A stretch of 64,000 bases of DNA, taken from contig CANJXC010000002.1 in assembly GCA_947478845.1 (NCBI GenBank), positions 62,001-126,000 on the forward strand. The letters are read 5' to 3'. The number at the start of each line of letters is the position of its first letter. The stretch's first letter is position 1. Below the pieces are notes generated by a model that saw only the letters and a program-made list of their open reading frames with translations, had not been told where the DNA came from and ran no database searches. Positions 5,398-27,618 of this stretch are shown piece after piece. Position numbers and translations under genes: made by a program. Source of the stretch: Spirochaetales bacterium (GTDB lineage: Bacteria > Spirochaetota > Spirochaetia > JABEVK01).

Positions 5398-5440
5398 TTT
5401 ACAACCTACACTTCGTCCTGTATATTACTGGTATACCAGT
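5398..5440 (+). promoter_or_regulatory. Promoter with TGGTATACCA operator, apnO operon 1
   Basis: On the plus strand TTTACA (5398-5403), 17 bases, TATATT (5421-5426) make a good sigma-70 promoter for the gene at 5472. The 20-bp site TATATTACTGGTATACCAGT (5421-5440) contains the perfect palindrome ACTGGTATACCAGT just after the -10 box, where a bound repressor would block initiation. The divergent gene at 5380 may share it. Confidence 0.7.
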
Positions 5441-5471
5441 GCTATGCCAAGAGTTGAGGGAGGGTTCCAGT

Positions 5472-6341
5472 ATGAATATTGCGCTCATAGGTGCCGGAGG
5501 AAAGATGGGTTCTCGAATCACCGACAACTTTCTGAAGTCGAACCTCAAGAACTCCGTTAGCTATGTCGAGGTGGGAGAGGCAGGCATCGCAAAGCTCGCG
5601 GCAAAAGGAATTAAGCCGATGGCAGCCGAAGTTGCCGTGCCACAAGCTGAGTTCGTTATTTTGGCTTTACCAGACAGGGCCATCGGTAAGTTGGCGCCGC
5701 CTCTTTTGAAGCTCATGAAAAAGAACGCCATGGTGATCCTTCTTGATCCGGCTGCCGTCTACCTTGATCAGGTGCCCGCTAGGCCCGACACCTCGGTTTT
5801 TGTCACCCACCCTTGTCATCCCCCTGTTTTCAACGACGAGATTGATCCTGAGGCCAAGAGGGATTTTTTTGGCGGCGTAAAGGCCAAGCAGTCGATTGTT
5901 TGTGCTCTGAAGTCTGGTCCGGAAAGTGACTATACGAAGGGTGAAGAAATGGCAAAGGTGATGTACGGACCAATTATTCGTTCCCATCGCATCACGGTCG
6001 ACCAGATGGCCATTCTTGAGCCGGCAATGGCCGAAACTGTGGGGTCGATGCTCTCGACAGTTTTGGGTGAGGCTCTCAAGCAAGCGGTGAAGGCCGGGGT
6101 GCCGGAAGCCGCCGCCAAGGATTTCATGTTAGGCCATATTCAGGTTCAGCTGGGAATTGTCTTTGGAGACGCAGGTTTTCCCTTTTCCGACGCGTGCCAA
6201 GTGGCCATTGAATACGGTAGAAAGTACATGATTCGCGACGGTTGGCAGGAGTTGTTCGACCACAAGAGTGTTCGTGAGCAAGTCGATGTCATGTTGAACC
6301 CCGAAAAGTTGCCTTTAGCCTTGAAGGCGATGAAACACTAA
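5472..6341 (+). CDS. apnO: D-apionate oxidoisomerase-like protein, copy 1
   Basis: A 289-residue NAD(P)-binding protein of the ApnO type (Rossmann domain plus a phosphogluconate-dehydrogenase-C-like domain). ApnO oxidises and isomerises D-apionate to 3-oxo-isoapionate. Visible: nucleotide-binding 'IALIGAGGKMGSRI' at the N-terminus, 'VILALPDRAIGKL', 'VFVTHPCHPPVFNDE', 'FFGGVKAKQSIVCAL' and the helix 'SHRITVDQMAILEPAMAE'. The ATG at 5472 is chosen because it opens the Rossmann fold and lies after the promoter and operator; the frame extends to 5073 but that part overlaps the divergent gene. First of three genes (apnO, apsD-like, amidohydrolase). A closely related copy lies at 25233-26105. Confidence 0.85.
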   Translation: MNIALIGAGGKMGSRITDNFLKSNLKNSVSYVEVGEAGIAKLAAKGIKPMAAEVAVPQAEFVILALPDRAIGKLAPPLLKLMKKNAMVILLDPAAVYLDQVPARPDTSVFVTHPCHPPVFNDEIDPEAKRDFFGGVKAKQSIVCALKSGPESDYTKGEEMAKVMYGPIIRSHRITVDQMAILEPAMAETVGSMLSTVLGEALKQAVKAGVPEAAAKDFMLGHIQVQLGIVFGDAGFPFSDACQVAIEYGRKYMIRDGWQELFDHKSVREQVDVMLNPEKLPLALKAMKH

Positions 6342-6342
6342 A

Positions 6343-7392
6343 ATGAAGCAACTCAAGGTAGGACTAATAGGGACGGGCTGGTGGTCAGAAAAGCATCTCA
6401 AAGCGTGGTCGAGGATTCCGGAGGTTCAACTTTGGGCCTTGGCAAATCGAAGCCCTGCAAAGCTTGTAGACAAAGCGACCGAGTTTGGTATTCCCCCCGA
6501 GCGGTGCTTCGCCACCTTCAAGGAGCTGCTGGCATCAGGGATAGACGTGGTCGATATTGTGACCGGCCCCGATTCGCACCGCGAATATGTGGAAGCCGCA
6601 GCAAAGGCGGGGGTACAGATTCTGTGCCAGAAGCCCTTTGCCCCATCGCTGAAAGATGCCGAAGCGATGGTTTCGGTGGCCAAGAGTTTCGCGGTGCGAC
6701 TGATGGTGACCGAAAACTGGCGTTGGCTTGAGCCGATGCGGATCATCAAGTCGATTCTCGATGAGGGAACCTTGGGATCGATTCAGGCCGTTCGCTACGT
6801 CCATTCCGATTTCTATACACCTCGGATGGCCCCTGGTGTTGCCCTCCCTCAGCCCTTTTTCCGCGACATGGATCCTTTTCTGTTTTTCGAAATGGGGCCA
6901 CATTGGTTCGATACTTGGCGCTACCTTTTTGGCAACCCAATGCGAGTCTATGCCGACCTCCGCTCGATCAGTCCCCACGTGAAAGGAGAAGATAGCGGAA
7001 CCGTAGTCTTGTCCCACGAGGGTTTTGTGGGCCTCATGGACATGAGCTGGGCAACTCGTCAGAGCCTCGATCGTCCTCTTGGAAAGGAAGTAGGCCCCGT
7101 GCATTTGGAGAGGCTGGTGATCGACGGAAAACTGGGTTCGCTCAAGCTCGACACTCTTGGCAGAATCACTTTGATTTCCGAGGATGGAATGGTGTCGACA
7201 GTGCTCCATTCTGAAACTTCCCTCGACCACGAGGAGAGTCACTTTCGGCTTCAAAAACATTTCATAGACGCCTTGGCCTCGGGTTCACCTTTCGCAACAA
7301 GCGGTGAGTTCACTCTCGATACCGTAAGGTTGATCGACGCGGTGTATCGCAGCTCGAAGACGGGGCAAGCTGTCGCCTACGGGTCAAAGTAA
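6343..7392 (+). CDS. apsD: D-apiose dehydrogenase-like Gfo/Idh/MocA oxidoreductase
   Basis: A 349-residue Gfo/Idh/MocA-family dehydrogenase, one base after the apnO stop. N-terminal Rossmann motif 'VGLIGTGWWSEKH', then 'VDIVTGPDSH', the family lysine in 'ILCQKPFAPS', and the substrate domain with 'VTENWRWLEPMR', 'FFRDMDPFLFFEMGPHWFDT' and 'WRYLFG'. The CQKP, NWRW and FRDM..E.G.H pattern is what I recall from ApsD, which oxidises D-apiose to apionolactone with NAD; I make the specific call from this and from the neighbouring ApnO-like and ApnL-like genes. Another sugar dehydrogenase of the family is the alternative. Cytoplasmic. Confidence 0.8.
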   Translation: MKQLKVGLIGTGWWSEKHLKAWSRIPEVQLWALANRSPAKLVDKATEFGIPPERCFATFKELLASGIDVVDIVTGPDSHREYVEAAAKAGVQILCQKPFAPSLKDAEAMVSVAKSFAVRLMVTENWRWLEPMRIIKSILDEGTLGSIQAVRYVHSDFYTPRMAPGVALPQPFFRDMDPFLFFEMGPHWFDTWRYLFGNPMRVYADLRSISPHVKGEDSGTVVLSHEGFVGLMDMSWATRQSLDRPLGKEVGPVHLERLVIDGKLGSLKLDTLGRITLISEDGMVSTVLHSETSLDHEESHFRLQKHFIDALASGSPFATSGEFTLDTVRLIDAVYRSSKTGQAVAYGSK

Positions 7393-7403
7393 GGAGTTGC
7401 ATC

Positions 7404-8144
7404 ATGATTATTGATGTCCATGCACACATGGGTTGGGACCAGGTTTTCGATGAGGAGTTCACCGCGCAGGACCTCCTAGCGAAACATAAGCTGTTTGGTA
7501 TCTCCCGGACCATTGTTCAACCCGCGTCCTGCCATACCTTGGAGTCTGTGCAAAAGCAGCATACGGCGATTGCCGAGTTGGCCAAAAAGCATCCCGGGGA
7601 ATTTCAAGGGATGGCCAATCCTAACCCACACCTGCCCGACGCCGAATATGAGGCCGAGCTTAAACGCTGCGTCTTGGAACTAGGTTTCGTCGGAGTCAAA
7701 GTTCACACTTTTGCGCACTCGGTTGTTCCCGGTGGACGCGACGGTCGCAAGGTTTTTCGCCTCGCGCAGCAACTAAAGATTCCAGTGATGGTGCATACCG
7801 GACCCGGGATTCCTTTTGCCAACCCGTCACTCTTGATCCCGGTTGCCCGCGACTTCCCCGATGTAACCGTGGTGATGGCCCATTGTGGACTCATGATTTC
7901 GGCCGCCGAGGTTCCCATTGTCCTGGACCTGTGCCCCAATGTGGTCGCCGACGTCACCTGGACAGGCGCCTTCCTCGTTCGGCATTGGGTGCACCAATTT
8001 GGTGCCCAGCGATTTATGTATGGAAGTGACCATGCCGACAACGCCGGAACCGAACTCGCAAAAGTTCGGGAGTGTGGCCTGACTGACGAGCAGGAAAACC
8101 TCCTTTTGTCGGGCAACGCGATCAGGGTTTACGGCGGCTTATAA
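7404..8144 (+). CDS. Amidohydrolase-2 family TIM-barrel hydrolase
   Basis: A 246-residue amidohydrolase-related metal-dependent hydrolase. Metal-ligand positions are visible: 'IDVHAHMGW' at the N-terminus, 'VKVHTF', 'PVMVHTG', 'VVMAHCG' and the late 'YGSDHADN'. A Shine-Dalgarno AAGGAG precedes the ATG at 7404, 12 bases after the dehydrogenase stop, so it is the third gene of the apnO operon. The family includes lactonases and decarboxylases acting on sugar acids; a lactone-opening role in parallel with the ApnL-like protein is possible but not shown by the sequence. Confidence 0.78.
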   Translation: MIIDVHAHMGWDQVFDEEFTAQDLLAKHKLFGISRTIVQPASCHTLESVQKQHTAIAELAKKHPGEFQGMANPNPHLPDAEYEAELKRCVLELGFVGVKVHTFAHSVVPGGRDGRKVFRLAQQLKIPVMVHTGPGIPFANPSLLIPVARDFPDVTVVMAHCGLMISAAEVPIVLDLCPNVVADVTWTGAFLVRHWVHQFGAQRFMYGSDHADNAGTELAKVRECGLTDEQENLLLSGNAIRVYGGL

Positions 8145-8167
8145 CAAGTGCGGGCACCAGGCTTTCC

Positions 8168-9490
8168 TTACAACTCCCACCTGCCCACCTGGTAGGCCAT
8201 AAGGTGGCAGGTGTGGGTTTTTCCGTCCGAAACGGTTACCAGTAAGTCTGTTGGTAACTCGGTTAGGTTGGCGAGGTAGACTAAAATCTGCGAGTCCTGC
8301 TCGATGGCGATGCCAGCGTACTTGCGTTCTCCTGACTGGGTTGCCTCACAAGACATTTTGATGGGCAGTAGCGGAACCCCTGCGAAGTTTCCTAACTCGA
8401 CAAGCAGCAAAGAACTTTCCTGCGAAAGCGACCCAAAACTGATCTCGCTGATGCCGGCTCTCGACGCGGTGGCTATCGCCGCCAGAACCCATGCGTTTTG
8501 AAAAGGGTCAGCTGCCAAACTGTCGTTTGTGCGGTACGAAACCACACCGAGGGCGAGGCTCGCGCCAGGAGCGAGGTCTTTTACCGTGTCCGCCTGGTCC
8601 CTGAGAGCGTCGAGGTTTTCGGCAAAGGTCTTCTGGTCGTAAAGGTTCACCGATGGGTCGAAGTCCCAGGAAACGACGCTTTGAGCTGCCCATGATTCCC
8701 TGTGGGTCCACCCGTCAAGAAAGAACTGAGGCCGCCTCGCAGCCAAAAGCTTGTGTAAAGACGGCATAAACAAACTTGGTGTTTGGCTTGGGTTTCCGAT
8801 CGTGACTTCCAATGGATCTTTAGTGGCCTGTGGTGGTGGGCTTTTATAGTCCACCGTTAGTCGTAGTACCTGTTTCTTTTCCGTGAGCTCGCTGACTTGC
8901 GGGTAAAGATACCTCATGCCCGAAAACAGTTTGAACGAACTGTCGCCAAAAAACCTTTGATCCTCCAAGCCAAAATCACTTTTGCTCAGCTCAATTTCCG
9001 CAGTCATCCCGCCTGAGTTCTCGTACTTGAGCGCCTTGAAGTTCTCTGCAAAAACAACCTGCTCGAGTTTGTACGGGAAGACCAAGGCCTTTCGCTGAGG
9101 TAGATCCACCTCGAACTCTCGCCCACAAACGGCTTGGGCTCCCAGCAGAACGCAAAAGCCAAAACGGTTCGCCAATGAGGGTCGCAGGGGTCGGCCAGCC
9201 GCGCTCACTGTAATCAGACCCGGCAACGTTGCTACCACCTGAATCTGGTACTCAAAATCGAGGGTCGCAGTTCGGCAACGTCCCTGGTAATCGACGGTGA
9301 AACCGTCGAGCTTTTGTGAAACCTTCAATCCTAGAATCTCCGGAACGACTGTTCTCCAGGCCTCATCTCGAACCGAAAAGTACACTCTTCGAATTAACTC
9401 AAAGGGGCCCACACGAAAGTAACGAAGTTCCCCGTCCTCAAGGTCCACGGATAGAGGGCCCAAGGTGAGGGTATTTGTTGGCTCGCTCAA
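8168..9490 (-). CDS. apnL: D-apionate lactonase-like protein
   Basis: A 440-residue protein resembling the N-terminal and middle parts of D-apionate lactonase (ApnL), which opens apionolactone to D-apionate. The features I match are 'LEDGELRYFRVGPFELIRRV', 'VRDEAWRTVVPEI', 'ANRFGFCVL' and 'EDQRFFGDSSFKLF', followed by a TIM-barrel-like half. It seems shorter than the roughly 600 residues I remember for the family. I start it at a TTG (9490) whose TTGA overlaps the stop of the upstream gene by 4 nt; the frame runs to 9547 with a 61-nt overlap, which is less likely. Last gene of the operon that starts with the binding protein at 15237. Confidence 0.7.
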   Translation of the reverse strand: MSEPTNTLTLGPLSVDLEDGELRYFRVGPFELIRRVYFSVRDEAWRTVVPEILGLKVSQKLDGFTVDYQGRCRTATLDFEYQIQVVATLPGLITVSAAGRPLRPSLANRFGFCVLLGAQAVCGREFEVDLPQRKALVFPYKLEQVVFAENFKALKYENSGGMTAEIELSKSDFGLEDQRFFGDSSFKLFSGMRYLYPQVSELTEKKQVLRLTVDYKSPPPQATKDPLEVTIGNPSQTPSLFMPSLHKLLAARRPQFFLDGWTHRESWAAQSVVSWDFDPSVNLYDQKTFAENLDALRDQADTVKDLAPGASLALGVVSYRTNDSLAADPFQNAWVLAAIATASRAGISEISFGSLSQESSLLLVELGNFAGVPLLPIKMSCEATQSGERKYAGIAIEQDSQILVYLANLTELPTDLLVTVSDGKTHTCHLMAYQVGRWEL

Positions 9491-10524
9491 TGGATGCCAT
9501 ACTTTCCAGCGAGTTCGGCAACCATTTGGGATGAGTGTTTCTTCCACGATTCAACAATATGGTCGTAAAAAGCATAGGCGGAAGAATCCTCAATAGTACC
9601 ATTCGCAGCCAGCCAGTCTAAACAACGCCTCACGCCTTCCTTCCAGCCGATGGTGTAGCGAAAGCCAAGATCGGCCCGAGCCGCGTCGTTGTTAAAGATC
9701 GTGACATATTGAAAGTTATAGCCACACCAGCTGGCCAGTTCCGGCGCTGTTCTCACAAGAAGGTCGGTAGGAATATGGACCAACTCAGGGGTGGCAACTC
9801 CCATGACTTCGGCCACCGCCGACCAGTAGGCATTATAGGTCATCCACTCTTCTCCGGTCACGTTGTAGCTTTTCCCGAAGGCCTTGGCATTGCCGATGGC
9901 ATTGAAAAAAGCCCTAGCTACGTCGATGGCGTGGCAGGCTACCCAAAGTGAACTTCCATCCCCATGGACGATGATCGGCTTACCTTTTTGAATGCGGTCT
10001 AGGTGGTAGGTGCCACCACGGAAAGCATGAACTAAAGGGCTTCCACCTTCGCTGTAGGTTTGCGCCGGCCTGAGGATGGTTACCGCGAAGTCTCCCTGGT
10101 CATGGGCCAAAAGCAACATTTCTTCGCAACGAGCTTTGTCAAACGCATACTGAAATTCACCAGAAGGTACTTTTGGCGAGTCTTCCCTTATCGGGAAGGC
10201 CGGTGCGGGTTTCGTGTAAACGTCGACCGTACTGCAAAAAATGTACTGCTTGATTCGACCACGAAACAGTTCGATGGATAGGGCCACTTCTTTGGGGGTG
10301 AAGCCAATCATATCCACAACACAATCGAAGTGACCCGCGGCCAAAATGAGTTTCCGGAAAGTCTCATGGTCTTTTCTGTCCGCGGTAATGGTTTTGACCG
10401 ACGATGGGATTCTCGTCGAGCGAAGGCCCCGATTGAGCACCGTCACATCGGAGGACTGCTCAACAAGCAAGTGGGTAAGGGGTGTGCTGATATTTCCTGT
10501 GCCGCCTAGGATGAGGGTTCTCAT
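9487..10524 (-). CDS. NAD-dependent epimerase/dehydratase (extended SDR)
   Basis: A 345-residue extended short-chain dehydrogenase. Cofactor motif 'LILGGTGNIS' (GxxGxxx) at the N-terminus, 'VVDMIGF', 'IFCSTVDVYTKP' for the active-site serine region, 'YAFDKARCEE' in the usual YxxxK place (here Y-A-F-D-K), and 'RPAQTY'. The substrate is unknown; in this operon an apiose-containing sugar, its lactone or a partner sugar is likely. The ATG overlaps the stop of the GH140-like gene by 4 nt (ATGA), and the ApnL-like gene overlaps its end, so the three are translationally coupled. Confidence 0.85.
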   Translation of the reverse strand: MRTLILGGTGNISTPLTHLLVEQSSDVTVLNRGLRSTRIPSSVKTITADRKDHETFRKLILAAGHFDCVVDMIGFTPKEVALSIELFRGRIKQYIFCSTVDVYTKPAPAFPIREDSPKVPSGEFQYAFDKARCEEMLLLAHDQGDFAVTILRPAQTYSEGGSPLVHAFRGGTYHLDRIQKGKPIIVHGDGSSLWVACHAIDVARAFFNAIGNAKAFGKSYNVTGEEWMTYNAYWSAVAEVMGVATPELVHIPTDLLVRTAPELASWCGYNFQYVTIFNNDAARADLGFRYTIGWKEGVRRCLDWLAANGTIEDSSAYAFYDHIVESWKKHSSQMVAELAGKYGIH

Positions 10525-11837
10525 TCTTGGCTATCCAAAACCAGAACATAGTCATGGTCACGACCTTGGAGCGGAGGGCGAAAGAAACGTTCGCCTGTGT
10601 TGGGAAAATTGTCGTAATCCACGAACGTCCCTAGGCGGGGGTCGAACCAACGGGCCATTAGCGTTTTACCACCAAGTACGCCCAGGCGAACGGTGACGCC
10701 TATTCCGTTGGGCAGATACACGAAGGCATAACCGTTTCCGCGGCAGGCCTGAATATGATTCATCCCTTCAAAGTTTTTTATCACAAGGCTTTGATCGGGA
10801 ACCCGGCTGAAAAAGTCCCGCGATTCAAAGAGTGTTTTCATGTGCCTGATCTGAGAGGCTCCGGGGCGATCCAAAGCGGTGCGCCAGTCCATCAAAAAAT
10901 AATTGTCGGACCAAGGGTCAGCAAGGTTGTCCGCTTGGGTTCTCATGGGCCAAACACAGTGATGACCGTAAGTGATGCCAAGACTACCCGCCATCAACGC
11001 CCAATACGACGAACGCCGCACATCGACTTGGTCAAAATACCCGTTGGCCGCTTTGAAACCGATGGGGTGGTCTTCATAGTTGGTTTCACCTTCCACCACC
11101 GGCTTAGGCTTGGTCAGTCGGTAGTCTTTCTCCAACACCTCATAATGAGGCGTAGTCTCCGTTCCATGTCCAGTTTGGGTCAAGTGAAAATCTAACCAAG
11201 TCTCGTCAGGAAACGGCAAGGAGGAAGAGGAAACGCCAGGAGGATGAAAGGTAATCAGATGTTGGCTTCCCGAACTCTTGATGCCCTCGACGAGAGAGCG
11301 AATCACCGAAAAATGATGTTCGGTCTGAAGGGGTCGGTCGCCACCTAGAACCCAGATCAGATTCTTGAACTTTCCATATCGAGCACCCAACCATTGCCCA
11401 AAAACCTTAGCGTTTTTGCTGTCGAAGACCTCTGGCCCTTTACCCCAATGCGAGGCATTGTACTTGTCGCCCCAGGTAGGGAGGAAAGCGAGGTAGATAC
11501 CCTGCCGCTCAGCTTCCCCAAAGGCATAATCCACTAGGTCCCAGTAGCTGTCTGAGCCATCAGCATCTGGGAGACTGGGGTCGAAGTTGCCGGCTTTGTT
11601 CTTCTTGAGCGGGTAGGCCCCCTGCCGGTTGGGAACTCGAAGCCCGTCTACCTCCGCAAGCGCCACCGCAAGCACGACGTTGAACCCCTGTGCAGACCGC
11701 TTTTGCAAGTAGAGGAGAATCTCTTCCCGGGTGAGTCGGTGAAATAATTCCCACGCCGTATCCGCCATCCAAAAAAAAGGCCGACCATCGGCCGTCTCGA
11801 GAAACCTACCATCTTTGTGCACTCTGAGCTCTTTCAC
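10521..11837 (-). CDS. GH140-type apiosidase (DUF4038)
   Basis: A 438-residue glycoside hydrolase of the DUF4038/Apiosidase family with a C-terminal collagen-binding-like beta domain; characterised members (GH140) cut apiose linkages in rhamnogalacturonan II. Visible: 'DGRPFFWMADTAWELFHRLT' at the N-terminus, 'GFNVVLAVAL', 'NLIWVLGGDRPL' (likely acid/base aspartate), 'DFHLTQTGH', 'PVVEGETNYEDHP' (likely nucleophile glutamate) and 'SYWALMAGSLGITYGHH'. The GTG at 11837 has GGAGG four bases upstream and matches the family start. No signal peptide is present, so it acts in the cytoplasm on imported oligosaccharides. Coupled to the SDR gene downstream. Confidence 0.87.
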   Translation of the reverse strand: MKELRVHKDGRFLETADGRPFFWMADTAWELFHRLTREEILLYLQKRSAQGFNVVLAVALAEVDGLRVPNRQGAYPLKKNKAGNFDPSLPDADGSDSYWDLVDYAFGEAERQGIYLAFLPTWGDKYNASHWGKGPEVFDSKNAKVFGQWLGARYGKFKNLIWVLGGDRPLQTEHHFSVIRSLVEGIKSSGSQHLITFHPPGVSSSSLPFPDETWLDFHLTQTGHGTETTPHYEVLEKDYRLTKPKPVVEGETNYEDHPIGFKAANGYFDQVDVRRSSYWALMAGSLGITYGHHCVWPMRTQADNLADPWSDNYFLMDWRTALDRPGASQIRHMKTLFESRDFFSRVPDQSLVIKNFEGMNHIQACRGNGYAFVYLPNGIGVTVRLGVLGGKTLMARWFDPRLGTFVDYDNFPNTGERFFRPPLQGRDHDYVLVLDSQE

Positions 11838-11859
11838 AAATCCTCCATCCGCATAATAG

Positions 11860-12744
11860 TTAGTCTCCCTTAATTCCACCGAGCATGATGCCCCGCACAA
11901 AGTGCTTCTGTACCGCTAAGAAAGAAAAGAAAATGGGGATCAAGGCGATAGTCGCCATGCCCATACGCAGAGCCAGAGGTGAGGCTATTGTGCCGGTGTA
12001 CTGTTCCCCACTTTGAGGAATAATGCTTTGGTTGAACGTGAGCTTATAGAGTAGATATTGCAAAGGATAAAGGTATTGCTGGTCGATATAAAGCAGGGCT
12101 TGGGTCATGTCGTTCCAGTACATCAGCATCGTAAACAATCCAACCGTGAGAACTGCCGGCATGGATAAGGGTAGAACAATACTGCGAAACGTCCGGAACT
12201 CTGATGCTCCGTCGATACGTGCTGACTCAATCAAAGACAAAGGAATTGTCCGAAAATACGACCGAAGAAGCAGAACATTAAAGGGAGAAATGAGCAGAGG
12301 AACAATGAGAGACAGCAGATTGTTTTTCCAATGCAGAAAGTTTGAAATCAGCAGGTAACTTGAGAGCGTGCCGCCGTTGAACAACAAGGTGAAGAACAGG
12401 AAAAAGCTGAGGAAGTTTGACCCTCCAAAGTTCTGCCTGGAAATCACGTAGGCGAACAAGGCCGAAGCCGCTACTCCTGCCAAGGTTCCCGCTACGGTTA
12501 CAGCTATGCTCACACTGTAGGAACGCACAATGAAATCAGGCTGGGCAAAAATCTTTCGGTAAGCCTCCCAAGAAAACTCCGAAGGGAAGATTTGGAAACC
12601 AAAAGAGGCAAGCGACTCGGTCGAGGCCACCGAAGAAATAATCAAAATCCATATTGGGAGTACTGACAGGATGCAAATAGGCACCAGAACCCCGATGCTG
12701 ATCCAAGTCACTGCGCCACCAGATTGGCTTCTAGAAGAGGGCAT
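11860..12744 (-). CDS. CUT1 ABC permease, YtcP/LplC type
   Basis: A 294-residue inner-membrane permease of the MalG-like branch used for oligosaccharide uptake (YtcP/LplC group). Six hydrophobic segments are apparent, with the EAA loop 'ESARIDGASEFRTFRSIVLP' that contacts the ATPase, and the typical C-terminus 'FVRGIMLGGIKGD'. The ATG at 12744 overlaps the preceding permease gene by 14 nt. It pairs with the permease at 12731 and the binding protein at 13723; no ATP-binding subunit is in the window, so a shared MsmX/MsiK-type ATPase elsewhere is expected. Confidence 0.9.
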   Translation of the reverse strand: MPSSRSQSGGAVTWISIGVLVPICILSVLPIWILIISSVASTESLASFGFQIFPSEFSWEAYRKIFAQPDFIVRSYSVSIAVTVAGTLAGVAASALFAYVISRQNFGGSNFLSFFLFFTLLFNGGTLSSYLLISNFLHWKNNLLSLIVPLLISPFNVLLLRSYFRTIPLSLIESARIDGASEFRTFRSIVLPLSMPAVLTVGLFTMLMYWNDMTQALLYIDQQYLYPLQYLLYKLTFNQSIIPQSGEQYTGTIASPLALRMGMATIALIPIFFSFLAVQKHFVRGIMLGGIKGD

Positions 12745-13654: not shown

Positions 13655-13675
13655 TAACACACCTTTAAAGGAAAT

Positions 13676-13700
13676 GTCCCGGAAGTTCTCCTTCCGGGAC
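13676..13700 (-). other. Stem-loop between binding-protein and permease genes
   Basis: A perfect 10-bp inverted repeat (GTCCCGGAAG, loop TTCTC, CTTCCGGGAC) after the solute-binding-protein gene. No T run follows on the transcribed strand, so it is more likely an mRNA-stabilising element than a full terminator. It would give more binding protein than permease. Confidence 0.7.
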
Positions 13701-13722
13701 CGCAGTTTATTGTCTGCCTCTT

Positions 13723-15389: not shown

Positions 15390-16289
15390 ATGATAGCAAG
15401 ATATTATCCACAAATGGACTATGAACTTTCTTGCCGATTTAACCCCTACGTACTTCATGTAGGAGGCATATCCGCTCATAACTGCCCTCCCGCGGGTGCC
15501 ATTTTCCCAAAACGCAAAGCACGTTGGTTTGAGCTTGAACTAATCAACACCGGGGGTGGTTTTCTTTTGTCTCAGGATGAGCTGGTAGCGGTTCGTCCTG
15601 GGATGGTGTTCTTCCACCCCCCTGGGAGAGTTGTTCAGGGAACTGCCCCCTATACCTGTGATGTCGTTGTCTTCGACGCGGAATATTCTCGTGACCGGGA
15701 GTCGGCCTATCATGAAGCAAACCTCTGGGCTGGCGACGAAACAGACTCTGTTGGTGGCCAAGGCGCCCTACCGGTGGGCCTTCCACCTTATTGGCAACTT
15801 TCTGAGTCTGCCCCGGTACGAGCCGCTTTCCGCAATATGCAGATCCTTTTTCAACAGAAAGGCACGGCTCCTCAGATGGCGCTAAAACAGTCTTTGATGG
15901 AAGTCCTTTTGTACTTGGGTGATCGACTCAAAGACCCCCCGAGCCGGTTGTTTGCCCATCAGCAGCAAATTGGCCTTCTCTGCCGCCACATTGACGCCAA
16001 TCCTCAGGGTAGGTTCGTGCTGGAAGAGCTCGCACAAATGGTCAATCTTAGCCCGAACTTTCTCTGTCGGGTTTTTAAGCAAAGCTTGGGTCAGACTTTG
16101 TTTCAATATGTGCACCGAAGCAAAATGGATAGAGCCAGTTCACTTCTGTTCGAAACTAACCTTTCTATCAAGGCAGTGGCGCTCGAAGTCGGCATCGAAA
16201 ATCAGAGTTATTTCCATGCTCTTTTCAAGAGATTAAGGGGTATGACACCTGCCGAATACCGGCAGAGGAATCGTTATCGGGTCTCCTAA
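15390..16289 (+). CDS. AraC-family transcriptional regulator
   Basis: A 299-residue AraC/XylS regulator. Residues about 1-160 form a cupin-like sensor ('ELINTGGGFLLSQDE', 'VRPGMVFFHPPGRVV'). Residues about 195-298 form the double helix-turn-helix ('LEELAQMVNLSPNFLCRVFK' and 'IKAVALEVGIENQSYFHALF', 'MTPAEYRQ'). It is divergent from the binding-protein operon with 152 bases between, so it most likely controls that operon in response to an imported sugar. A terminator follows at 16299. Confidence 0.9.
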   Translation: MIARYYPQMDYELSCRFNPYVLHVGGISAHNCPPAGAIFPKRKARWFELELINTGGGFLLSQDELVAVRPGMVFFHPPGRVVQGTAPYTCDVVVFDAEYSRDRESAYHEANLWAGDETDSVGGQGALPVGLPPYWQLSESAPVRAAFRNMQILFQQKGTAPQMALKQSLMEVLLYLGDRLKDPPSRLFAHQQQIGLLCRHIDANPQGRFVLEELAQMVNLSPNFLCRVFKQSLGQTLFQYVHRSKMDRASSLLFETNLSIKAVALEVGIENQSYFHALFKRLRGMTPAEYRQRNRYRVS

Positions 16290-16298
16290 GGGTCCCTG

Positions 16299-19329: not shown

Positions 19330-19355
19330 GGTTGTTGGCTCCAAAAGAAAAAAGG

Positions 19356-19383
19356 AGGAACCGGGCGTGCGAGCCCGGTTCCT
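19356..19383 (-). terminator. Intra-operon terminator-like hairpin
   Basis: An 11-bp perfect stem (AGGAACCGGGC pairs with GCCCGGTTCCT, six-base loop) followed on the minus strand by CCTTTTTTCTTTT. It lies between the binding-protein and permease genes, so it probably acts as a partial terminator that lowers permease expression. Confidence 0.8.
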
Positions 19384-19398
19384 GAGTTACTTCAGTAC

Positions 19399-20709: not shown

Positions 20710-20863
20710 ATTTCCTCCAATGAAAATATTGACAATAGACTAAAGACAAAAAACATCGCCTTAGTGAGAATTGGTCTGATCCTAAAGCCAACGATTGTCT
20801 AGGTAAGAGCTCTTCCGGTCGATATCAATTCACCTCCCAAATCAAGCTTTTTGAGATACGTCT

Positions 20864-22480
20864 CTAAAGTCGCTTAAGTAGGAGAAGCCACTCCATGAGA
20901 TAGGGGGTAGTAGGTACCACCCAGTCACCTTTCGAGTCGGCTAGGGCCACTCCAGCGTCTATCGTTGTGAATCTTTCGGGATCGACGAACTGAGCCTGAT
21001 AACGTGTGCCAGGCTCCAGACAATGGAGGACGGATCCATCCCAATGCCAATAACGCCGAGGAATATAAAAGAGTCGGCAAATGTTTGGCACACCGGCACA
21101 ATAGACCCTTAAAGGGGGGTCGTAGGCTTCCTCACCCCATCTGACTGCCGTCGTCGCCCATTCGGGAAAGGGTTTGAAATCTTGCCAAGGCAATTTTTCG
21201 AGCAGAGCCCGAGCTTTTCCGAGCTGCGATGCCCCTTTGAAGGTAAGGGCTTCGTCCCAGGTTGTGGCGTCATAAGCGCCGCCATCCGGCCGATTGCCGG
21301 TAGGTCTATCGCGATCGTTGGCCTGAAATATACCTGCTGCTCCGTAGGTGAACCCACCAGCGCCCGAAAGCAGGCTCGACCAAAAAGCAAAGCGTTGAAC
21401 TTCAGGGCCGTTTGTGCCCATGTGTCCCTCATAGGGGGGCTCAGCGTTGACAACCGGTTGCTCAGGAAAAGACTTTCGGGCGTCCTCAATCAAGGAGACC
21501 CCCAGACCTAGGGCGTTGCGCATGTGACCAGGCTGCAACATATGAAAATCTAGCGTCGTTGAATCCTCTAGGTCCAACCAAGACGAACGCCGAGGATGTG
21601 TGCTCAATGGCCTGTGGTAAGGATCAAAGTGTTTGACAACTTGAGAAACGCGGGTCCAAGCGGAACGAAGGCGCTCCGTATCGCCTGTCGGATCTTTCGA
21701 CAAATAGTAGCTCATAGCCGTTTCTCCGGCTAAGGCCCAAACCACTGGCCATGAAGCGTACCTGGCCACGAGATATCGCCAAAAGTCGGTCATCGTCTTT
21801 TCACCAAGCTCGAGCAGGTGGTAGCCCCAGCTTCCTAGAATGCAGGGAACTATTCCGGCCCTAATAATAGTCCTAAGTCGTCGGTCACATGCTTCAAAAT
21901 ACGCCGGGTTAATTCTTGATCTATCGGTAGCCAGCGGCATTCCGCCCTCGTTACCTACTCTCGGATCGTCAGTGGCCAAATCCCCCGGATATCCTAAGAC
22001 TACCTGAACCACTGTGAAGCCGTGCTCAGCCCTATCCTGAACGAGCGTCGTGAAATCATTTGGCCAGCTAACCCTGTCGGACATCTGCATCCACCATGTA
22101 TCTCCTAACCAGAAAAAAGGCGTGCCGTCGGCATGAACAAAGCCTGCGCCTTGCTTCACACGAACGGCACCATGATGAAATAGGGGGTTGGAATCCAAGT
22201 GCTTATTCGTTACCAGCAACTGAGCGTTTACACCGTTCAAGCCAAGATCTTTAGTATCTGAACATTTAGACCTAAGGGAGTATTCTCCCGCAACCGCAAC
22301 GCTTACCCGAAGGGTCCATACTTGGCCACCTGACCAGAATAAAGGAAGCGTTGTCTGGGTTCCGTCAGCGGCCTCTAGAATAGCAACCACCTCAATTTCC
22401 CCGTAGGGATTCTCGCGATGAACTTGCCCTTCAAGGTCCCATTCCGTAGAAACGTTAACACTAGTAATTAGGTTTACCAC
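20864..22480 (-). CDS. DUF5060 + DUF4038 apiosidase-like glycoside hydrolase
   Basis: A 538-residue predicted glycosidase. Residues about 1-110 are a DUF5060-like beta domain ('YSLRSKCSD'). Residues about 125-430 are an Apiosidase-type TIM barrel ('FFWLGDTWWMQMSDRVSWP', 'VVWALAGETAMSYY' with a likely acid/base glutamate, 'DFHMLQPGH', 'PVVNAEPPYEGHM' with a likely nucleophile glutamate, 'GAGGFTYGAAGI'). A C-terminal beta domain follows. The GTG at 22480 has GAGGAG six bases upstream. No signal peptide, so it is cytoplasmic. Substrate inferred from the family and the locus only. It sits between the two-component genes and transporter 2. Confidence 0.8.
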   Translation of the reverse strand: MVNLITSVNVSTEWDLEGQVHRENPYGEIEVVAILEAADGTQTTLPLFWSGGQVWTLRVSVAVAGEYSLRSKCSDTKDLGLNGVNAQLLVTNKHLDSNPLFHHGAVRVKQGAGFVHADGTPFFWLGDTWWMQMSDRVSWPNDFTTLVQDRAEHGFTVVQVVLGYPGDLATDDPRVGNEGGMPLATDRSRINPAYFEACDRRLRTIIRAGIVPCILGSWGYHLLELGEKTMTDFWRYLVARYASWPVVWALAGETAMSYYLSKDPTGDTERLRSAWTRVSQVVKHFDPYHRPLSTHPRRSSWLDLEDSTTLDFHMLQPGHMRNALGLGVSLIEDARKSFPEQPVVNAEPPYEGHMGTNGPEVQRFAFWSSLLSGAGGFTYGAAGIFQANDRDRPTGNRPDGGAYDATTWDEALTFKGASQLGKARALLEKLPWQDFKPFPEWATTAVRWGEEAYDPPLRVYCAGVPNICRLFYIPRRYWHWDGSVLHCLEPGTRYQAQFVDPERFTTIDAGVALADSKGDWVVPTTPYLMEWLLLLKRL

Positions 22481-22594
22481 GAGAGACTCCTCACCCAACT
22501 GTCGATGCCAATAATGCTGACTTCAATAAGTCTAACTTATCGCGAGTTGCCGTCTACGAGAATGATTTCGGATTTTGTGGACTTTATTCGGAAA

Positions 22595-23419
22595 CTAGAT
22601 TGTAGAGGAAGAACTATTTTCTTTGGCAGAGTGCTCCTTACGATAAACCTCAGGAGAACTTAAAAAAGACCTTTTAAACACACGAGAAAAATAGGCAGAG
22701 TCTGAGAACCCAGCTAAAGCGGCGATTTCAAAGATTTTTAGTTCTGTTTCTTCCAGTAGAGCCACTGCACTGCGCATCTTAATGCTAAGCAAGAATGCCG
22801 AATATCCTAAGCCAACTTCTCTCTTGAAGACCTCGGAAAAGTAGGTTGGGTTCATAGAAGTGAGTCTCGAAGCTTCGGTCAGGCTTGGATTGAGTTGATA
22901 GTTTTCCTGTAGGTATTCACAAACTCTAGCAATGCGGACATCGATGATTGGCGCAGGCGCGTGGATGGTCTCATGAGTTCCAAAGTCTGCTACCTTGTTT
23001 TCCACTTCCCCAATCTGCTCAAGCTCATCGGAACAACCCCTACGGTGGACGATGCGCTCGACGGCACGAGACAAAATGAACTCGAACTCGAGCTTATTGA
23101 TTGGTTTTAAGACGTAGTCACAAACACTCTCCCGAATTGCTCTCTGTGCAAACGCAAAATCGCTATGGCCTGAAATAACGATAGTTTCCAGTTCTGGAGA
23201 CACGGTTTTTAGGCTGTGAATCAACTCAAGTCCATCGAGATCTGCCATTTTAATGTCGGTGATCAAAATATCGGGATGAATTTTCAGACACCCAGCCAAA
23301 GCATCCGTGCCAGTGGACGCTTCGCCCACAAGTTGAATGCCAAGGCGCTTCCAATCGATCATGTTCTTAAGGAGGGATCTGACCCACACCTCGTCGTCCG
23401 CGATAAAAGCGCGGATCAT
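22595..23419 (-). CDS. YesN-type response regulator (REC + AraC HTH)
   Basis: A 274-residue response regulator: receiver domain residues 1-120 (acidic pocket 'ADDE', phosphoacceptor D55 in 'LITDIKM', K105 in 'VLKPI') and a C-terminal AraC-type helix-turn-helix pair ('PSLTEASRLTSMNPTYFSEVF', 'IFEIAALAGFSDSAYFSRVF'). Its ATG overlaps the kinase stop by 4 nt, so it is the partner of that kinase. Such pairs activate carbohydrate uptake genes; the nearest candidates are the hydrolase at 20864 and transporter 2. Confidence 0.93.
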   Translation of the reverse strand: MIRAFIADDEVWVRSLLKNMIDWKRLGIQLVGEASTGTDALAGCLKIHPDILITDIKMADLDGLELIHSLKTVSPELETIVISGHSDFAFAQRAIRESVCDYVLKPINKLEFEFILSRAVERIVHRRGCSDELEQIGEVENKVADFGTHETIHAPAPIIDVRIARVCEYLQENYQLNPSLTEASRLTSMNPTYFSEVFKREVGLGYSAFLLSIKMRSAVALLEETELKIFEIAALAGFSDSAYFSRVFKRSFLSSPEVYRKEHSAKENSSSSTI

Positions 23420-25200
23420 AGTGAGTTTTCTACCGGGAAGAAGGGTTGCCTGATTGTCACTAAAGTTCCGTGCCCGTAGTCGCTTTCCACTTCAATGCCA
23501 CTTGGTTGGCCATGGACGAGTCGAATACGGTTGTGGACATTTGCCATGCCTATTCCCGTGTTGTGGGACTCTCTTCCGGCATTTAACCCAATGCGTATCT
23601 TCTCCAGGGTTGTGTCGTCTATCCCAGGACCATTGTCTCGGACGGTGACCACGAGCTGTCCGCCTTCGCGGCGAGCTTTCAGTTCGATATGGCCGTTTTT
23701 TCCACACTTCTCGACACCATGCTGGAAGGCGTTTTCGACGATTGGCTGTAGCATAAAGCGGACTACGTTGGCGCGGGAGCATCCTTCTTCGATATCTGAG
23801 GAATAGCAAAAGCGGTTCTGAAAGCGGTGTTTCTGTATTTCGAGATAATGGTTCAAGTGTTCGAGCTCCTGCAACAAGGTAGCGGTTCCACCGGAGCCAC
23901 TGCTCGCGTACCGGAAGAGTTCGCCTAAAGAGGCTGTCATATCGGCGACATCTTTGTAGCGACTCTCATAAGCCATACCGCGAATAACATCGATGGTGTT
24001 ATACAGAAAATGCGGGTTGATCTGGAATTGGAGCGCCAAAAGCTCAGCACGGACTGTTTCCCGCTCTTTGAGCACAACCTGATTGACAAGAGCATCAATT
24101 TGCACCTGCATCGAATTAAAACTGCTCACCAGATGCACAAACTCTTTGCAACCCGCTTCTTCAAGAGGACGGGAGAAATCACCTTTGTGCACGGTGTCCA
24201 TTCCTTCGATGATCTTGAACAAGGGCCGAGTCACTCGATTGACCGCTATCAGGCTCATGAAGATGGTCGTCAGGATAAGAAGTAGTACTGCAACCAAATA
24301 GAGTTCTTGAATGCTAGATAGCTCTTCTTGAAGTCCCTGAAGGGGCATTTCACTAACGACCCAACCAAAAGGTTCAAGTGGTCTTCTCAGAAGAACTGAA
24401 TCACCTCGGTTTGTAAGCACCTTATTCAAGAGTTCACTGCGGCTGGTTTTGGCCACGTGGGAGGTCTCGGTTTCTTGACCCAAGAAATTGCGATTCGGAT
24501 GATAGAGGATAAAGCCACTTTCATCGTAGATCATCATGGAGGATCCAGTTCGAGCGAGGCTAATGTCAAATTGGCCAAAAAGCAGACCATAGTCGAAATC
24601 AATAACAAGTATGATTGAGTTCTGCGGAAGTCCATAGGGAGCAATCCGCGATACCATAGTCAGCGTCCGGTTTGGCTTTGTGGCCGCACGCTGGGCATAA
24701 TCGGGAACCAAGATCTGTAATTTAATTCCGGGGATTTCTGTCGTTCGGGCTTGCTGGAACCAAGGTTTTTCCTCAAGTTTTTGGAAGTCGGCGTCTATTG
24801 CAGTGGAAACGGCCCGGTTCTCGATACCAACGATATAGATGTTGGAAATGTAGGAAAAGGATCTTTTGAGCCGCTTGAGATAAATCTCATCGGCTTTAAG
24901 TATTGCGTTTTGGTCTGTTCCTGGGTCCACGGTTGGCAGGTAGAGGTAATCGGTTAGGGCGGCAATGTCGACGACTTGTCTCCAGATAACATTGAGTTGC
25001 TTCATAAGGTTTTCTGCGGCATCAGCGTTTTGGTTAACCAGTCCTGTGGCGTAAGTAGAAACGTTTTCTGTAACCAGGGAGTTTACTCGGGAATAATAGA
25101 GAAAGCTGAGAATCAATAAAGGAGTCATGGAGAACAGAAGGATGATGAGGATCAGTTCAGTGCGGATGGAGATTTTAGAAGAGGGTAAGTTCAATAGCAA
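23416..25200 (-). CDS. YesM-type sensor histidine kinase
   Basis: A 594-residue membrane kinase: first span at about residues 15-36, a periplasmic Cache-like sensor, second span near 300-320, a HAMP linker ('VTRPLFKIIEGMDTVHKGDF'), a His_kinase domain with the phospho-histidine in 'LQFQINPHFLYNTIDV' (near residue 395), and a HATPase domain ('PIVENAFQHGVEK', 'VRDNGPGIDD', 'TGIGMANVHNRI'). The start is a TTG at 25200 with GAGGA seven bases upstream. It follows the apnO copy 2 gene by 32 bases. It probably senses an extracellular sugar or a loaded binding protein. Confidence 0.92.
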   Translation of the reverse strand: MLLNLPSSKISIRTELILIILLFSMTPLLILSFLYYSRVNSLVTENVSTYATGLVNQNADAAENLMKQLNVIWRQVVDIAALTDYLYLPTVDPGTDQNAILKADEIYLKRLKRSFSYISNIYIVGIENRAVSTAIDADFQKLEEKPWFQQARTTEIPGIKLQILVPDYAQRAATKPNRTLTMVSRIAPYGLPQNSIILVIDFDYGLLFGQFDISLARTGSSMMIYDESGFILYHPNRNFLGQETETSHVAKTSRSELLNKVLTNRGDSVLLRRPLEPFGWVVSEMPLQGLQEELSSIQELYLVAVLLLILTTIFMSLIAVNRVTRPLFKIIEGMDTVHKGDFSRPLEEAGCKEFVHLVSSFNSMQVQIDALVNQVVLKERETVRAELLALQFQINPHFLYNTIDVIRGMAYESRYKDVADMTASLGELFRYASSGSGGTATLLQELEHLNHYLEIQKHRFQNRFCYSSDIEEGCSRANVVRFMLQPIVENAFQHGVEKCGKNGHIELKARREGGQLVVTVRDNGPGIDDTTLEKIRIGLNAGRESHNTGIGMANVHNRIRLVHGQPSGIEVESDYGHGTLVTIRQPFFPVENSL

Positions 25201-25232
25201 GTCTTATTCCTCAACCACAGCGACGCTTCTTC

Positions 25233-26105
25233 TCAGCCCTTAATGGCCTGAAGTACTTTTGTCAATTTTTCGGGATGCAGCATAACATCGACCTGCTCCT
25301 TGATGCTTTTGTGGTCAAAGACTTTTTCCCATCCTTCTTTGATCAGGGATGCCCTGCCATAATCGATAGCAACCAAGCAGGCGTCTGAAAAATTGAACCC
25401 AACTTGGCCGAGTGCGATGCTGAGGCCAATGTGGATGTGCCCCAGCATAAAGTCGCGAGCGGCCTCAGCAGGCACACCTGCCTTGATTGCCTGCGCCAGT
25501 GAATCTCGCAAGATTGTTGATAACGTGCAGGCAACGGTCTCTGCCATTGCGGGTTCAAGAATCGCCATTTGGTCGACCGTGATTCGGTGAGATCGGAGAA
25601 TGGGGCCATACATCACCTTGGCAAGATCCTCGCCTCTTGCGTAGTCGGCCTCAGGGCCACTCCCTAGGGCGCATACAATCGCTTGTTTTGCCTTGACTCC
25701 GCCGAAATAATCTTGGCGTGCTTCTGCGTCCACTTCATCGTTAAAAACCGGGGTGTGGCAGGGGTGGGTTACGAAGAAGGAGACCTCGTGGCGTATGGGG
25801 AGTTGGCCGAGATAAGCCGCGGCGGGGTCAAGAAGTACGACCATGGCTCCAGGCTTCATGAGTTGAACGACAGCAGGGGATAGTTTCCCGATAAGGCGGT
25901 CAGGGAGTGCAAGGATCACGAGGTCGGCACCGGGGATAGCTTCTTCGGCAGTAGAAACCCGGAGTCCTTTTGCCTTCAGGCGGTCCTGACCTTCGGAACT
26001 GACTTCAACATATTGCGTCGAATCACCGTAGGCAGATTTGACTAAGTTGTTGGTGATCCTCGTACCCATTTTGCCGCCCGCACCCAACAGAGTTACTCTT
26101 TGCAA
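25233..26105 (-). CDS. apnO: D-apionate oxidoisomerase-like protein, copy 2
   Basis: A 290-residue paralogue of the gene at 5472, sharing 'LLGAGGKMG.RI', 'LVILALPDRLIGKLSP', 'FFVTHPCHTPVFNDE', 'YFGGVKAKQAIVCALGSGPE' and 'SHRITVDQMAILEPAMAE'. No ATG precedes the Rossmann motif after the promoter; I choose a TTG at 26105 (reading QRVTLLGAGG next) with GGGGG just upstream. The frame extends to 26183 but that part contains the -10 box and operator. The two copies are close enough that one could be a recent duplicate or could have a different substrate. Confidence 0.82.
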   Translation of the reverse strand: MQRVTLLGAGGKMGTRITNNLVKSAYGDSTQYVEVSSEGQDRLKAKGLRVSTAEEAIPGADLVILALPDRLIGKLSPAVVQLMKPGAMVVLLDPAAAYLGQLPIRHEVSFFVTHPCHTPVFNDEVDAEARQDYFGGVKAKQAIVCALGSGPEADYARGEDLAKVMYGPILRSHRITVDQMAILEPAMAETVACTLSTILRDSLAQAIKAGVPAEAARDFMLGHIHIGLSIALGQVGFNFSDACLVAIDYGRASLIKEGWEKVFDHKSIKEQVDVMLHPEKLTKVLQAIKG

Positions 26106-26131
26106 TGGAAAGCCCCCGACCCTTTGGTAAG

Positions 26132-26179
26132 TATACCATTGGTATACCAGTTGATACACCCGGTCGCTGAATCTGTCAA
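26132..26179 (-). promoter_or_regulatory. Promoter with TGGTATACCA operator, apnO copy 2
   Basis: On the minus strand TTGACA (26179-26174), 17 bases, TATCAA (26156-26151) form a strong promoter. The operator TATACCATTGGTATACCAGT (26132-26151, plus strand) starts at the -10 box and runs over the expected start point, the same geometry as at 5421 and 27571. Confidence 0.75.
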
Positions 26180-26224
26180 TCATATTCTGCTACCGTGACC
26201 CCTCTCACAGCGCGTTCTCTGGTG

Positions 26225-27547
26225 TTAGCCTGTCGGGTTACCCGTTGGTTTTCGGACGATCAGGTCGCGGGTAATTCGACCCACATCGGGTGCACCACAC
26301 AAGGCCATGCACAGTTTAGTCTCTTCGTGAAGGAGGCTCAGCACAGCTTTGGCGCCTTCTTCACCGTAACCTGCCAGCCCATAAATAACCGGACGAGTCA
26401 CGCCCACGGCCCGTGCACCCAAAGCAAGTGCCTTGACGATATCGCTTCCCCGCCGGATTCCACCGTCAAGGTACACTTCCATCTTGGTTTGTGGACCCAA
26501 AGAGTCGATGACCTCTTCGAGGACGTCTAGGCTCGCCCTAGCGCCATCGAGTTGCCTTCCCCCGTGGTTGCTGACTAGGATTCCCGCGACGCCGTGCCGG
26601 GCTGCCGTTTGGGAATCGTCACCACGTTGAACACCCTTGAGGACTATTGGCAGGGTAGTGATCGACATCAGCCAGTCGACAAAATCCCACGTCAGGCTTG
26701 GATCGCTGAGGGTGCCAAGGGAACGGATGACCCCGTTTCCCGAGCCAAAGGTGTTGCGCAGATCACTTTCGCGGCGCCCAAGAAACGGTGTGTCGACAGT
26801 CAGAAAAATCGCCTGGTATCCGAGAGCCTCGACTTTTTTGACCAGAGATTTTGTCACCTCATGGTCGCGATTGACGTAAAGCTGAAAGAACTGAATATGC
26901 CCTTCCGGTCGGGCTGAAGCAATTTCCTCGTGAGTTCGGCTTGACACGGTAGGGACCATTTGTGGAACACCAACGGCCTTTGTCGCTCGAGCCAAGGCAA
27001 GTTCCGCCTCCGGGTGAGCAAGACCCGACAAGGCCGAAGCGGACAGAAAAAGCGGGTATGCTGTTGGAAAACCGAGTATTGTGGTCGACGTATCGACGTT
27101 GCTGACATCAACCAAGATGCGGGGGCGGAACCGCCAATTCTTAAATGTCGCTTGGTTTTCTGCAACGGTGAACTCATCTTCTGCAGCGCTGGAATAGTAA
27201 ACATACTCGGCATGACCCATGGATTTTTGAGCGACTTTCTGAAAATCTTCGGTGTTTAACAGGGTTGCCATCTCCGGCCTACCACGAACCGTTGGTGACT
27301 CTTGAATCACCGGCTGCCAGTCCTCGAGTTGGCCTCGGTAAGAGTCGGAAGGAAGCATCGAGAGGAACGATTTTGGATGATGAGCGGCAAAAGCGCCGCT
27401 GGAATCCTTGCCCGCAACGCTGAGCAGGATATCTTTCCCTCCTGGATGACGCTCGAGAAAGCTGGTGATATCGAACACTTGGCCTTCCAGCGCTATCCAA
27501 CAACTAGAAGCGTCACTATGCTCGCTCAATTGTTGTCTAGTGATCAC
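26225..27547 (-). CDS. Cytochrome b5 + FMN 2-hydroxyacid dehydrogenase fusion
   Basis: A 440-residue flavocytochrome-b2-like protein. Residues about 1-85 are a cytochrome b5 domain with both heme histidines ('FLERHPGGKDIL' and 'AFAAHHPKSF'). Residues about 105-435 are an FMN-dependent alpha-hydroxyacid dehydrogenase with 'YYSSAAEDE', 'LYVNRDHE', 'TVDTPFLGRRESD', 'VLKGV' and the catalytic 'SNHGGRQLDG'. It oxidises a 2-hydroxyacid such as lactate or glycolate. The start is a GTG at 27547 with AAGGAG six bases before it; the ATG at 27553 touches the ribosome site. It is divergent from the RuBisCO-like gene and shares its operator, which favours glycolate as substrate. This domain fusion is classical in yeast and unusual in bacteria. 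Confidence 0.87.
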   Translation of the reverse strand: MITRQQLSEHSDASSCWIALEGQVFDITSFLERHPGGKDILLSVAGKDSSGAFAAHHPKSFLSMLPSDSYRGQLEDWQPVIQESPTVRGRPEMATLLNTEDFQKVAQKSMGHAEYVYYSSAAEDEFTVAENQATFKNWRFRPRILVDVSNVDTSTTILGFPTAYPLFLSASALSGLAHPEAELALARATKAVGVPQMVPTVSSRTHEEIASARPEGHIQFFQLYVNRDHEVTKSLVKKVEALGYQAIFLTVDTPFLGRRESDLRNTFGSGNGVIRSLGTLSDPSLTWDFVDWLMSITTLPIVLKGVQRGDDSQTAARHGVAGILVSNHGGRQLDGARASLDVLEEVIDSLGPQTKMEVYLDGGIRRGSDIVKALALGARAVGVTRPVIYGLAGYGEEGAKAVLSLLHEETKLCMALCGAPDVGRITRDLIVRKPTGNPTG

Positions 27548-27557
27548 AAACATCTCC

Positions 27558-27587
27558 TTGACCACAAAGGTATACCATTGGTATACC
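27558..27587 (+). promoter_or_regulatory. Possible divergent promoter for the RuBisCO-like gene
   Basis: On the plus strand TTGACC (27558-27563), 18 bases, TATACC (27582-27587), with the -10 box inside the operator. Weaker than the opposite promoter, but one repressor dimer here would control both directions. Confidence 0.5.
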
Positions 27588-27618
27588 AGTATATAGTTCT
27601 GGCGATAGTTGCTGTCAA
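27571..27618 (-). promoter_or_regulatory. Promoter with TGGTATACCA operator, flavocytochrome gene
   Basis: On the minus strand TTGACA (27618-27613), 17 bases, TATATA (27595-27590). The operator TATACCATTGGTATACCAGT (27571-27590, plus strand) overlaps the start of transcription. It is identical over 20 bp to the copy at 26132-26151. Confidence 0.78.

Follow-up and report, generated by a model that had tools for sequence, protein, structure and literature searches.

The window analyzed here, a stretch of 64,000 nucleotides of contig CANJXC010000002.1 from a Spirochaetales bacterium (assembly GCA_947478845.1), contains a predicted cluster for the utilization of the plant sugar apiose and of apionate, in which three short palindromic sites, putative operators of a single repressor, mark the starts of distant genes. 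The first site separates apnO1, a gene of the D-apionate oxidoisomerase family, from a divergent operon that consists of a gene for a xylose-isomerase-like protein (SPIM) and gntR, which encodes a regulator of the GntR family with an FCD domain; the second precedes apnO2, a paralog of apnO1; and the third lies between a flavocytochrome b2-like gene and a divergent operon that begins with the gene for a RuBisCO-like protein (RLP) (Table 1). The original prediction, made from the window alone, placed a common operator at the two apnO starts and in the flavocytochrome/RLP divergon; all three locations are borne out, but the divergent SPIM-gntR promoter over site 1, which an independent promoter scan detects, had been overlooked.

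A pattern search of the whole genome (2,988,638 bases, 99.75% complete), the check that had been proposed along with the prediction, turns out in favor of the latter and identifies exactly three perfect copies of the palindrome TGGTATACCA, all of them in this cluster. It is the placement of these copies, not their number, that is remarkable, as all three are found at promoters of one cluster and share a common extended structure. The three promoter hexamer pairs with 17-base spacers that had been reported next to the sites are present, and the three 20-mers proposed as the shared operator occur at exactly the positions given for them (5421-5440, 26132-26151 and 27571-27590). The sites themselves are thus real, and their arrangement far exceeds chance, but the 20-mer is out of register: because transcription from promoters 2 and 3 runs along the minus strand, aligning the sites on the plus strand sets TATATTAC, which at site 1 is the -10 box, against TATACCAT, which belongs to the second operator copy of sites 2 and 3. 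The 20-mer was dropped as the operator unit since only promoter orientation, and not the other register, consistently yields a further copy at +11 bp. With the sites oriented by their promoters, the palindrome has its best second match within 40 bp at +11 bp in each case, a feature that had also escaped notice. From base composition, the chance of such second copies at one fixed offset in all three sites is of the order of 1e-12, to be relaxed by a factor of about 80 given that the offset was chosen afterwards. In the predicted operator unit, two palindromes are spaced by one helical turn (11 bp), the first one directly behind the -10 box.

The corresponding 20-bp composite, CTGGTATACCARTGSTATRC, has three perfect matches in the genome in promoter orientation; a search that allows up to two mismatches adds nothing to these except the opposite-strand reading of site 1. 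The reversed control gives no matches. Genome-wide matches to the 12-mer TGGTATACCAGT with one or two mismatches are as frequent as those to its control (142 and 143, respectively), that is, at the background level, and therefore do not indicate any wider set of weak sites. The promoter pattern TT(G/T)ACA-N16-18-TATNNN occurs four times in the window, with three of the four occurrences abutting operators, and the -35 boxes of sites 2 and 3 are perfect. A scan of the window detects no site at the starts of the two groups of ABC transporter genes or of the other apiosidase genes.

The best candidate for the repressor acting at the three sites is the gntR product, in agreement with the original prediction. 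This protein matches both the winged-helix and the FCD profiles above the curated cut-offs. The genome has just two FCD genes, and that of the gntR product is the only one linked to the cluster. The gntR gene starts within 2 bp of the end of SPIM on the minus strand, and its autoregulation is likely because site 1 is straddled by the promoter that leads into SPIM and then gntR. All three operators (TGGT-AT-ACCA) fit the FadR-subfamily consensus T(G/T)GT-N2or3-AC(A/C)A, in which N2 separates GT from AC in UxuR-/GntR-type sites, and a weaker neighboring box 7-12 nt from the center of a palindromic site is documented for the GntR family (PMC4494728). The closest homologs found, with 37-43% identity, are encoded directly behind RLP and kinase genes, in part with apnO, in Ammoniphilus (L081), Cytobacillus (L082) and Cohnella (L104); the best-scoring homologs in 392 other genomes of the phylum show about 35% identity. 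The score of the protein against the NanR profile NF003011 is 72.7 bits, below the curated cut-off of 260 bits. From the ATG at 4560, the sequence starts with MTLKESAYLALRRKIL and runs straight into the winged helix, with no NanR-like 32-residue extension.

Table 1. Genes, promoters and putative operators at the three sites of the predicted regulon (positions in the window)
Feature	Coordinates	Strand	Evidence or remark
gntR, GntR-FCD regulator, 208 residues, proposed repressor	3934..4560	-	PF00392 5.3e-15, PF07729 2.5e-26
SPIM, xylose-isomerase-like TIM barrel (AP_endonuc_2), first gene of gntR operon	4562..5380	-	profile match
apnO1 promoter TTTACA-17-TATATT	5398..5426	+	read in sequence
Divergent SPIM-gntR promoter TTGGCA-17-TAATAT	5422..5450	-	promoter scan; operator 1 in spacer
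Operator 1, primary palindrome TGGTATACCA, inside 14-bp palindrome ACTGGTATACCAGT	5429..5438	+	exact match
Operator 1, second copy TGCTATGCCA	5440..5449	+	8/10; best palindrome match within 40 bp, at +11
apnO1, D-apionate oxidoisomerase family, PGDH_C	5472..6341	+	PF16896 4e-59
Gfo/Idh/MocA dehydrogenase, apnO1 operon	6343..7392	+	homologs in many RLP loci
Amidohydrolase 2, apnO1 operon	7404..8144	+	profile match
AraC-type response regulator, paired with histidine kinase	22595..23419	-	domain match
Histidine kinase	23416..25200	-	32 bp after apnO2
apnO2, TTG start at 26105	25233..26105	-	65% identical to ApnO1
Operator 2, second copy TGGTATACTT	26129..26138	-	8/10; +11 bp in promoter orientation
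Operator 2, primary palindrome TGGTATACCA	26140..26149	-	exact match
apnO2 promoter TTGACA-17-TATCAA	26151..26179	-	read in sequence
Flavocytochrome b2-like: cytochrome b5 + FMN-dependent 2-hydroxyacid dehydrogenase	26225..27553	-	PF00173 7e-20, PF01070 5e-113
Candidate RLP operon promoter TTGACC-18-TATACC	27558..27587	+	inferred from sequence; weak -10; overlaps both operator 3 copies
Operator 3, second copy TGGTATACCT	27568..27577	-	9/10; +11 bp in promoter orientation
Operator 3, primary palindrome TGGTATACCA	27579..27588	-	exact match
Flavocytochrome promoter TTGACA-17-TATATA	27590..27618	-	read in sequence
RLP, outside OiaX branch	27641..28894	+	profile scores, tree
OiaK-like four-carbon acid sugar kinase	28891..30249	+	profile match
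Apiosidase-like hydrolase, last gene of RLP operon	30340..31815	+	profile match

Comparison with 87 apionate-type RLP loci (1.54 Mb) reveals related arrangements in other bacteria. The RLP promoters of Ammoniphilus, Cytobacillus and Cohnella carry TAGATCTA-type palindromes, which in Cohnella include two perfect cores at a distance of 11 bp, and such palindromes are missing from the three Firmicute RLP loci that lack a GntR of this kind. In the recognition helix, the three Firmicute orthologs contain SKTPIK, compared with SRSPIR in the window protein; in FadR, the first Arg of these positions, as they correspond in our own alignment, makes a specific Arg-G contact (PMC4494728, Table 1). The same architecture spelled in different letters is what would be expected of a co-evolving regulator and operator, a suggestive pattern seen in three loci. 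An Oceanospirillaceae locus (L108), which encodes a more distant relative of the window GntR, contains two perfect copies of TGGTATACCA, 23 bp apart, in front of its RLP-kinase-apnO operon and one copy in front of the GntR gene. In addition, CTGGTATRATGA is found 21 times in the 87 loci, against none for the reversed control, mostly in front of NanR-type FCD genes, RLP genes or apnO; the genes preceded by such sites include those annotated as oiaX and apnO in Rhizobium sp. N731, with one site located between the NanR-type gene and oiaX. Judging by these loci, the CTGGTAT half-site recurs in apionate regulons that have FCD regulators. The same class I/II aminotransferase gene adjoins a TGGTATACCA site in two proteobacterial RLP loci (L108, 4231-5400; L150, 4483-5556), a hint that it could be a further regulon member there. 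In haloarchaeal replicons (L068, L071 and L120), RLP, kinase and ApnO homologs are encoded together, and the regulator in L068 is of the IclR type rather than GntR. Within the order and phylum of the Spirochaetales bacterium, the RLP search yields no match above 34% identity outside this genome.

The predicted system is an FCD-GntR regulon with double palindromic operators and, as a type of regulon, is already known. The UxuR/GntR sugar-acid regulons of the FadR subfamily combine the same winged helix and FCD domain with a TGGT-N2-ACCA palindrome and a sugar-acid pathway, and include divergons in which a single site regulates both sides as well as weaker extra boxes 7-12 nt from the center; by contrast, the pathway here is that of apiose and apionate, with an RLP and the flavocytochrome included, and the extra box amounts almost to a complete second palindrome, at a distance of exactly 11 bp in each of the three sites (PMC4494728). 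NanR of E. coli, with its (GGTATA)3 operator, is likewise an FCD GntR repressor that recognizes GGTATA half-sites in several adjacent copies, but these are direct repeats, and cooperativity depends on a 32-residue N-terminal extension (PMC8012715), whereas the window GntR has only a few residues before the DNA-binding domain and its operator copies are palindromic. The proteobacterial NanR-type regulator next to oiaX, kinase and apnO genes in Rhizobium sp. N731 (L202) resembles the window protein in being an FCD regulator that adjoins an apionate operon, with the CTGGTAT half-site upstream of oiaX and apnO; it differs in that the operator, CTGGTATRATGA, is not a full palindrome, the regulators are only about 25% identical, and the RLP is a true OiaX decarboxylase.

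The window RLP scores 454.6 bits against the OiaX profile NF042437, below the cut-off of 700 bits (the Rhizobium OiaX scores 785.7), and is 43% identical to OiaX. Most RLPs that are 52-66% identical to it are encoded next to an SBD_N/NBD_C kinase and many next to ApnO. With its RLP fold, adjacent kinase and ApnO, the protein is best classified as an apionate RLP in the wide sense, not as OiaX. For RLPs of apiose catabolism, PMC6302742, citing Carter et al. 2018, gives two activities on 3-oxo-isoapionate-4-phosphate, namely, decarboxylation in Agrobacterium and transcarboxylation/hydrolysis in Xanthobacter. Given that the triose-phosphate-isomerase and RpiB-like genes of the Rhizobium oiaX operon are not seen among the cluster genes examined in the window, and that in a quick tree, with OiaX on a long branch, the RLPs of Xanthobacteraceae group on the non-OiaX side, the transcarboxylase/hydrolase type appears to be favored for the window RLP. 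The products of this type are reportedly 3-phosphoglycerate and glycolate.

The flavocytochrome aligns over its full length with yeast flavocytochrome b2 (1FCB, 1LTD), which also combines a cytochrome b5 domain and a 2-hydroxyacid dehydrogenase dependent on flavin mononucleotide (FMN) in one chain and from which it differs in being bacterial and encoded in an apiose cluster. The motifs YYSSAAEDE, QLYVNRD, TVDTPFLGRRESD, VLKGVQRG, SNHGGRQLD and HPGG align with b2 and are conserved; we take these to contain the catalytic Tyr, Asp, Lys, His and Arg residues and, in the case of HPGG, to be the heme motif. The position of Leu230 in b2, which is Trp in glycolate oxidase, is occupied by Val, so that the pocket may accept larger 2-hydroxy acids, with glycolate as only one candidate; for the same reason, a simple glycolate-oxidase reading is not adopted. 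Except for a GlcD-like fragment in L108, GlcD- or FMN-type oxidases are not found in the other RLP loci, which therefore provide no support for glycolate oxidation as a regular neighbor-encoded step. A search of 393 genomes of the phylum finds, among the matches listed, only partial FMN-domain matches outside this genome. A tentative proposal, which we consider possible rather than probable, is that the flavocytochrome catalyzes a step of an undescribed form of the apionate pathway, in which a non-OiaX RLP of the transcarboxylase/hydrolase-like type would release glycolate and 3-phosphoglycerate and the heme-flavin enzyme, under the same repressor, would oxidize glycolate or another 2-hydroxy acid and pass the electrons to the respiratory chain.

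Downstream of apnO2, the 32 bp that precede the histidine kinase gene contain no terminator-like site, and the kinase is probably co-transcribed with apnO2. This sensor pair, which the original prediction did not consider, probably serves the adjacent sugar ABC transporter genes and may be under the same control as apnO2; the run of apnO2 into the kinase and response regulator genes suggests a regulatory cascade.

Taken together, these observations are best compatible with the prediction, to which we assign a probability of roughly 0.83, that the FCD-type GntR protein recognizes each of the three sites as a double operator and would thereby repress the apionate cluster. Two GntR dimers could occupy the palindromes, centered 11 bp apart, next to each other on the same side of the double helix, and GntR on the first copy, just downstream of the -10 box of apnO1, apnO2 and the flavocytochrome gene, would block RNA polymerase or open-complex formation. 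At site 1, located in the spacer of the divergent SPIM-gntR promoter, this binding would result in negative autoregulation. Site 3 overlaps the stretch that probably serves the RLP-kinase-apiosidase operon as its promoter. An acidic pathway intermediate, such as apionate, 3-oxo-isoapionate or its phosphate, would release GntR and thereby induce the intracellular oxidative branch along with the flavocytochrome, and read-through from apnO2 would raise the level of the kinase/response-regulator pair, the probable controller of uptake. One repressor thus very probably switches both the apiose breakdown cluster and a heme-flavin enzyme not previously tied to this pathway.

Several observations weigh against this assignment. 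The -10 boxes of sites 2 and 3 (TATCAA and TATATA) are weak, with four of six matches and the final T missing, and the RLP-side promoter at site 3 is poorly defined. The loci of the closest GntR orthologs do not conserve the letters of the window operator, having the TAGATCTA-type palindromes instead, and the window GntR shares only 24-28% identity with the regulators from Oceanospirillaceae and of the NanR type, so that the half-site shared with them may in part reflect a general preference of the family. The sites could also be genuine and bound by another regulator, either the second FCD protein, encoded on contig C3, or the AraC-type proteins at 15390 and 22595. The second FCD protein is 36% identical to the gntR product over nearly the full length and has a similar recognition helix (VSRSPVREAL), but its gene is on a different contig that contains no perfect TGGTATACCA, and it is the linked gntR operon whose promoter overlaps site 1. 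Palindromes of the TGGT-N2-ACCA form are not known to be typical of AraC proteins. They are typical of the FadR-subfamily GntR proteins (PMC4494728), and binding by another regulator is improbable.

A rather different alternative, which we consider unlikely, is that the site 3 operator serves the RLP operon alone and that the flavocytochrome gene, as the other half of the divergon, is an uninvolved bystander. FMN-dependent 2-hydroxyacid dehydrogenases are encoded in none of the 86 other apionate-type RLP loci, and the closest apionate clusters manage without this enzyme, which weighs against its membership and leaves the operator as its only tie to the pathway. However, the site 3 promoter that shows the fixed geometry points to the flavocytochrome gene, exactly as those at apnO1 and apnO2 do, and the promoter on the RLP side is less convincing; being one of three genes with this promoter-operator geometry, the flavocytochrome gene appears to be correctly drawn into the pathway by the original prediction. 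Finally, the shared words could be by-products of the apnO duplication or of chance, with no regulatory role, considering that the two ApnO proteins are paralogs with 65% identity and that about 2.2 perfect copies of TGGTATACCA are expected from base composition in 2.99 Mb, which makes the count of the 10-mer on its own ordinary. This explanation is very improbable: conservation among the sites does not extend from the promoter elements into the flanks (6-8 of 28 downstream positions), so that the operators are not mere recent duplications, the flavocytochrome gene is no relative of apnO and yet has the same site, and the composite motif is unique in the genome.

The GntR assignment provides a specific, testable operator for the apionate/RLP pathway, with a sharp genome-wide boundary of three sites. 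In the literature searched, no operator or regulator is described for this pathway, and a search with the letters of TGGTATACCA returns mostly unrelated primer and viral papers. The operator assigns to the pathway a biochemically orphan flavocytochrome, to which gene neighborhoods elsewhere would never point. More broadly, the pairing of apionate-type RLP clusters with FCD-GntR regulators recurs in several phyla, and these regulators have the CTGGTAT half-site in common.

Some of the neighboring genes deserve mention. SPIM is probably a pathway enzyme because its homologs, with 34-40% identity, recur in RLP loci of other phyla (L072, L124, L135 and L147). A 459-residue protein (8168-9547) has no Pfam match and shows 27% identity over 218 residues to a 642-residue hypothetical protein of Microvirga, the gene of which adjoins a Gfo dehydrogenase gene in an RLP locus; homologs of the 459-residue protein are found in many RLP loci, and it is probably a pathway lactonase. 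The cluster, which spans about 28 kb, encodes three apiosidase-like hydrolases (10521-11900, 20864-22498 and 30340-31815) and two ABC importers. A 1007-codon open reading frame (853-3876) that encodes repeated RCC1-like units ends just short of gntR.

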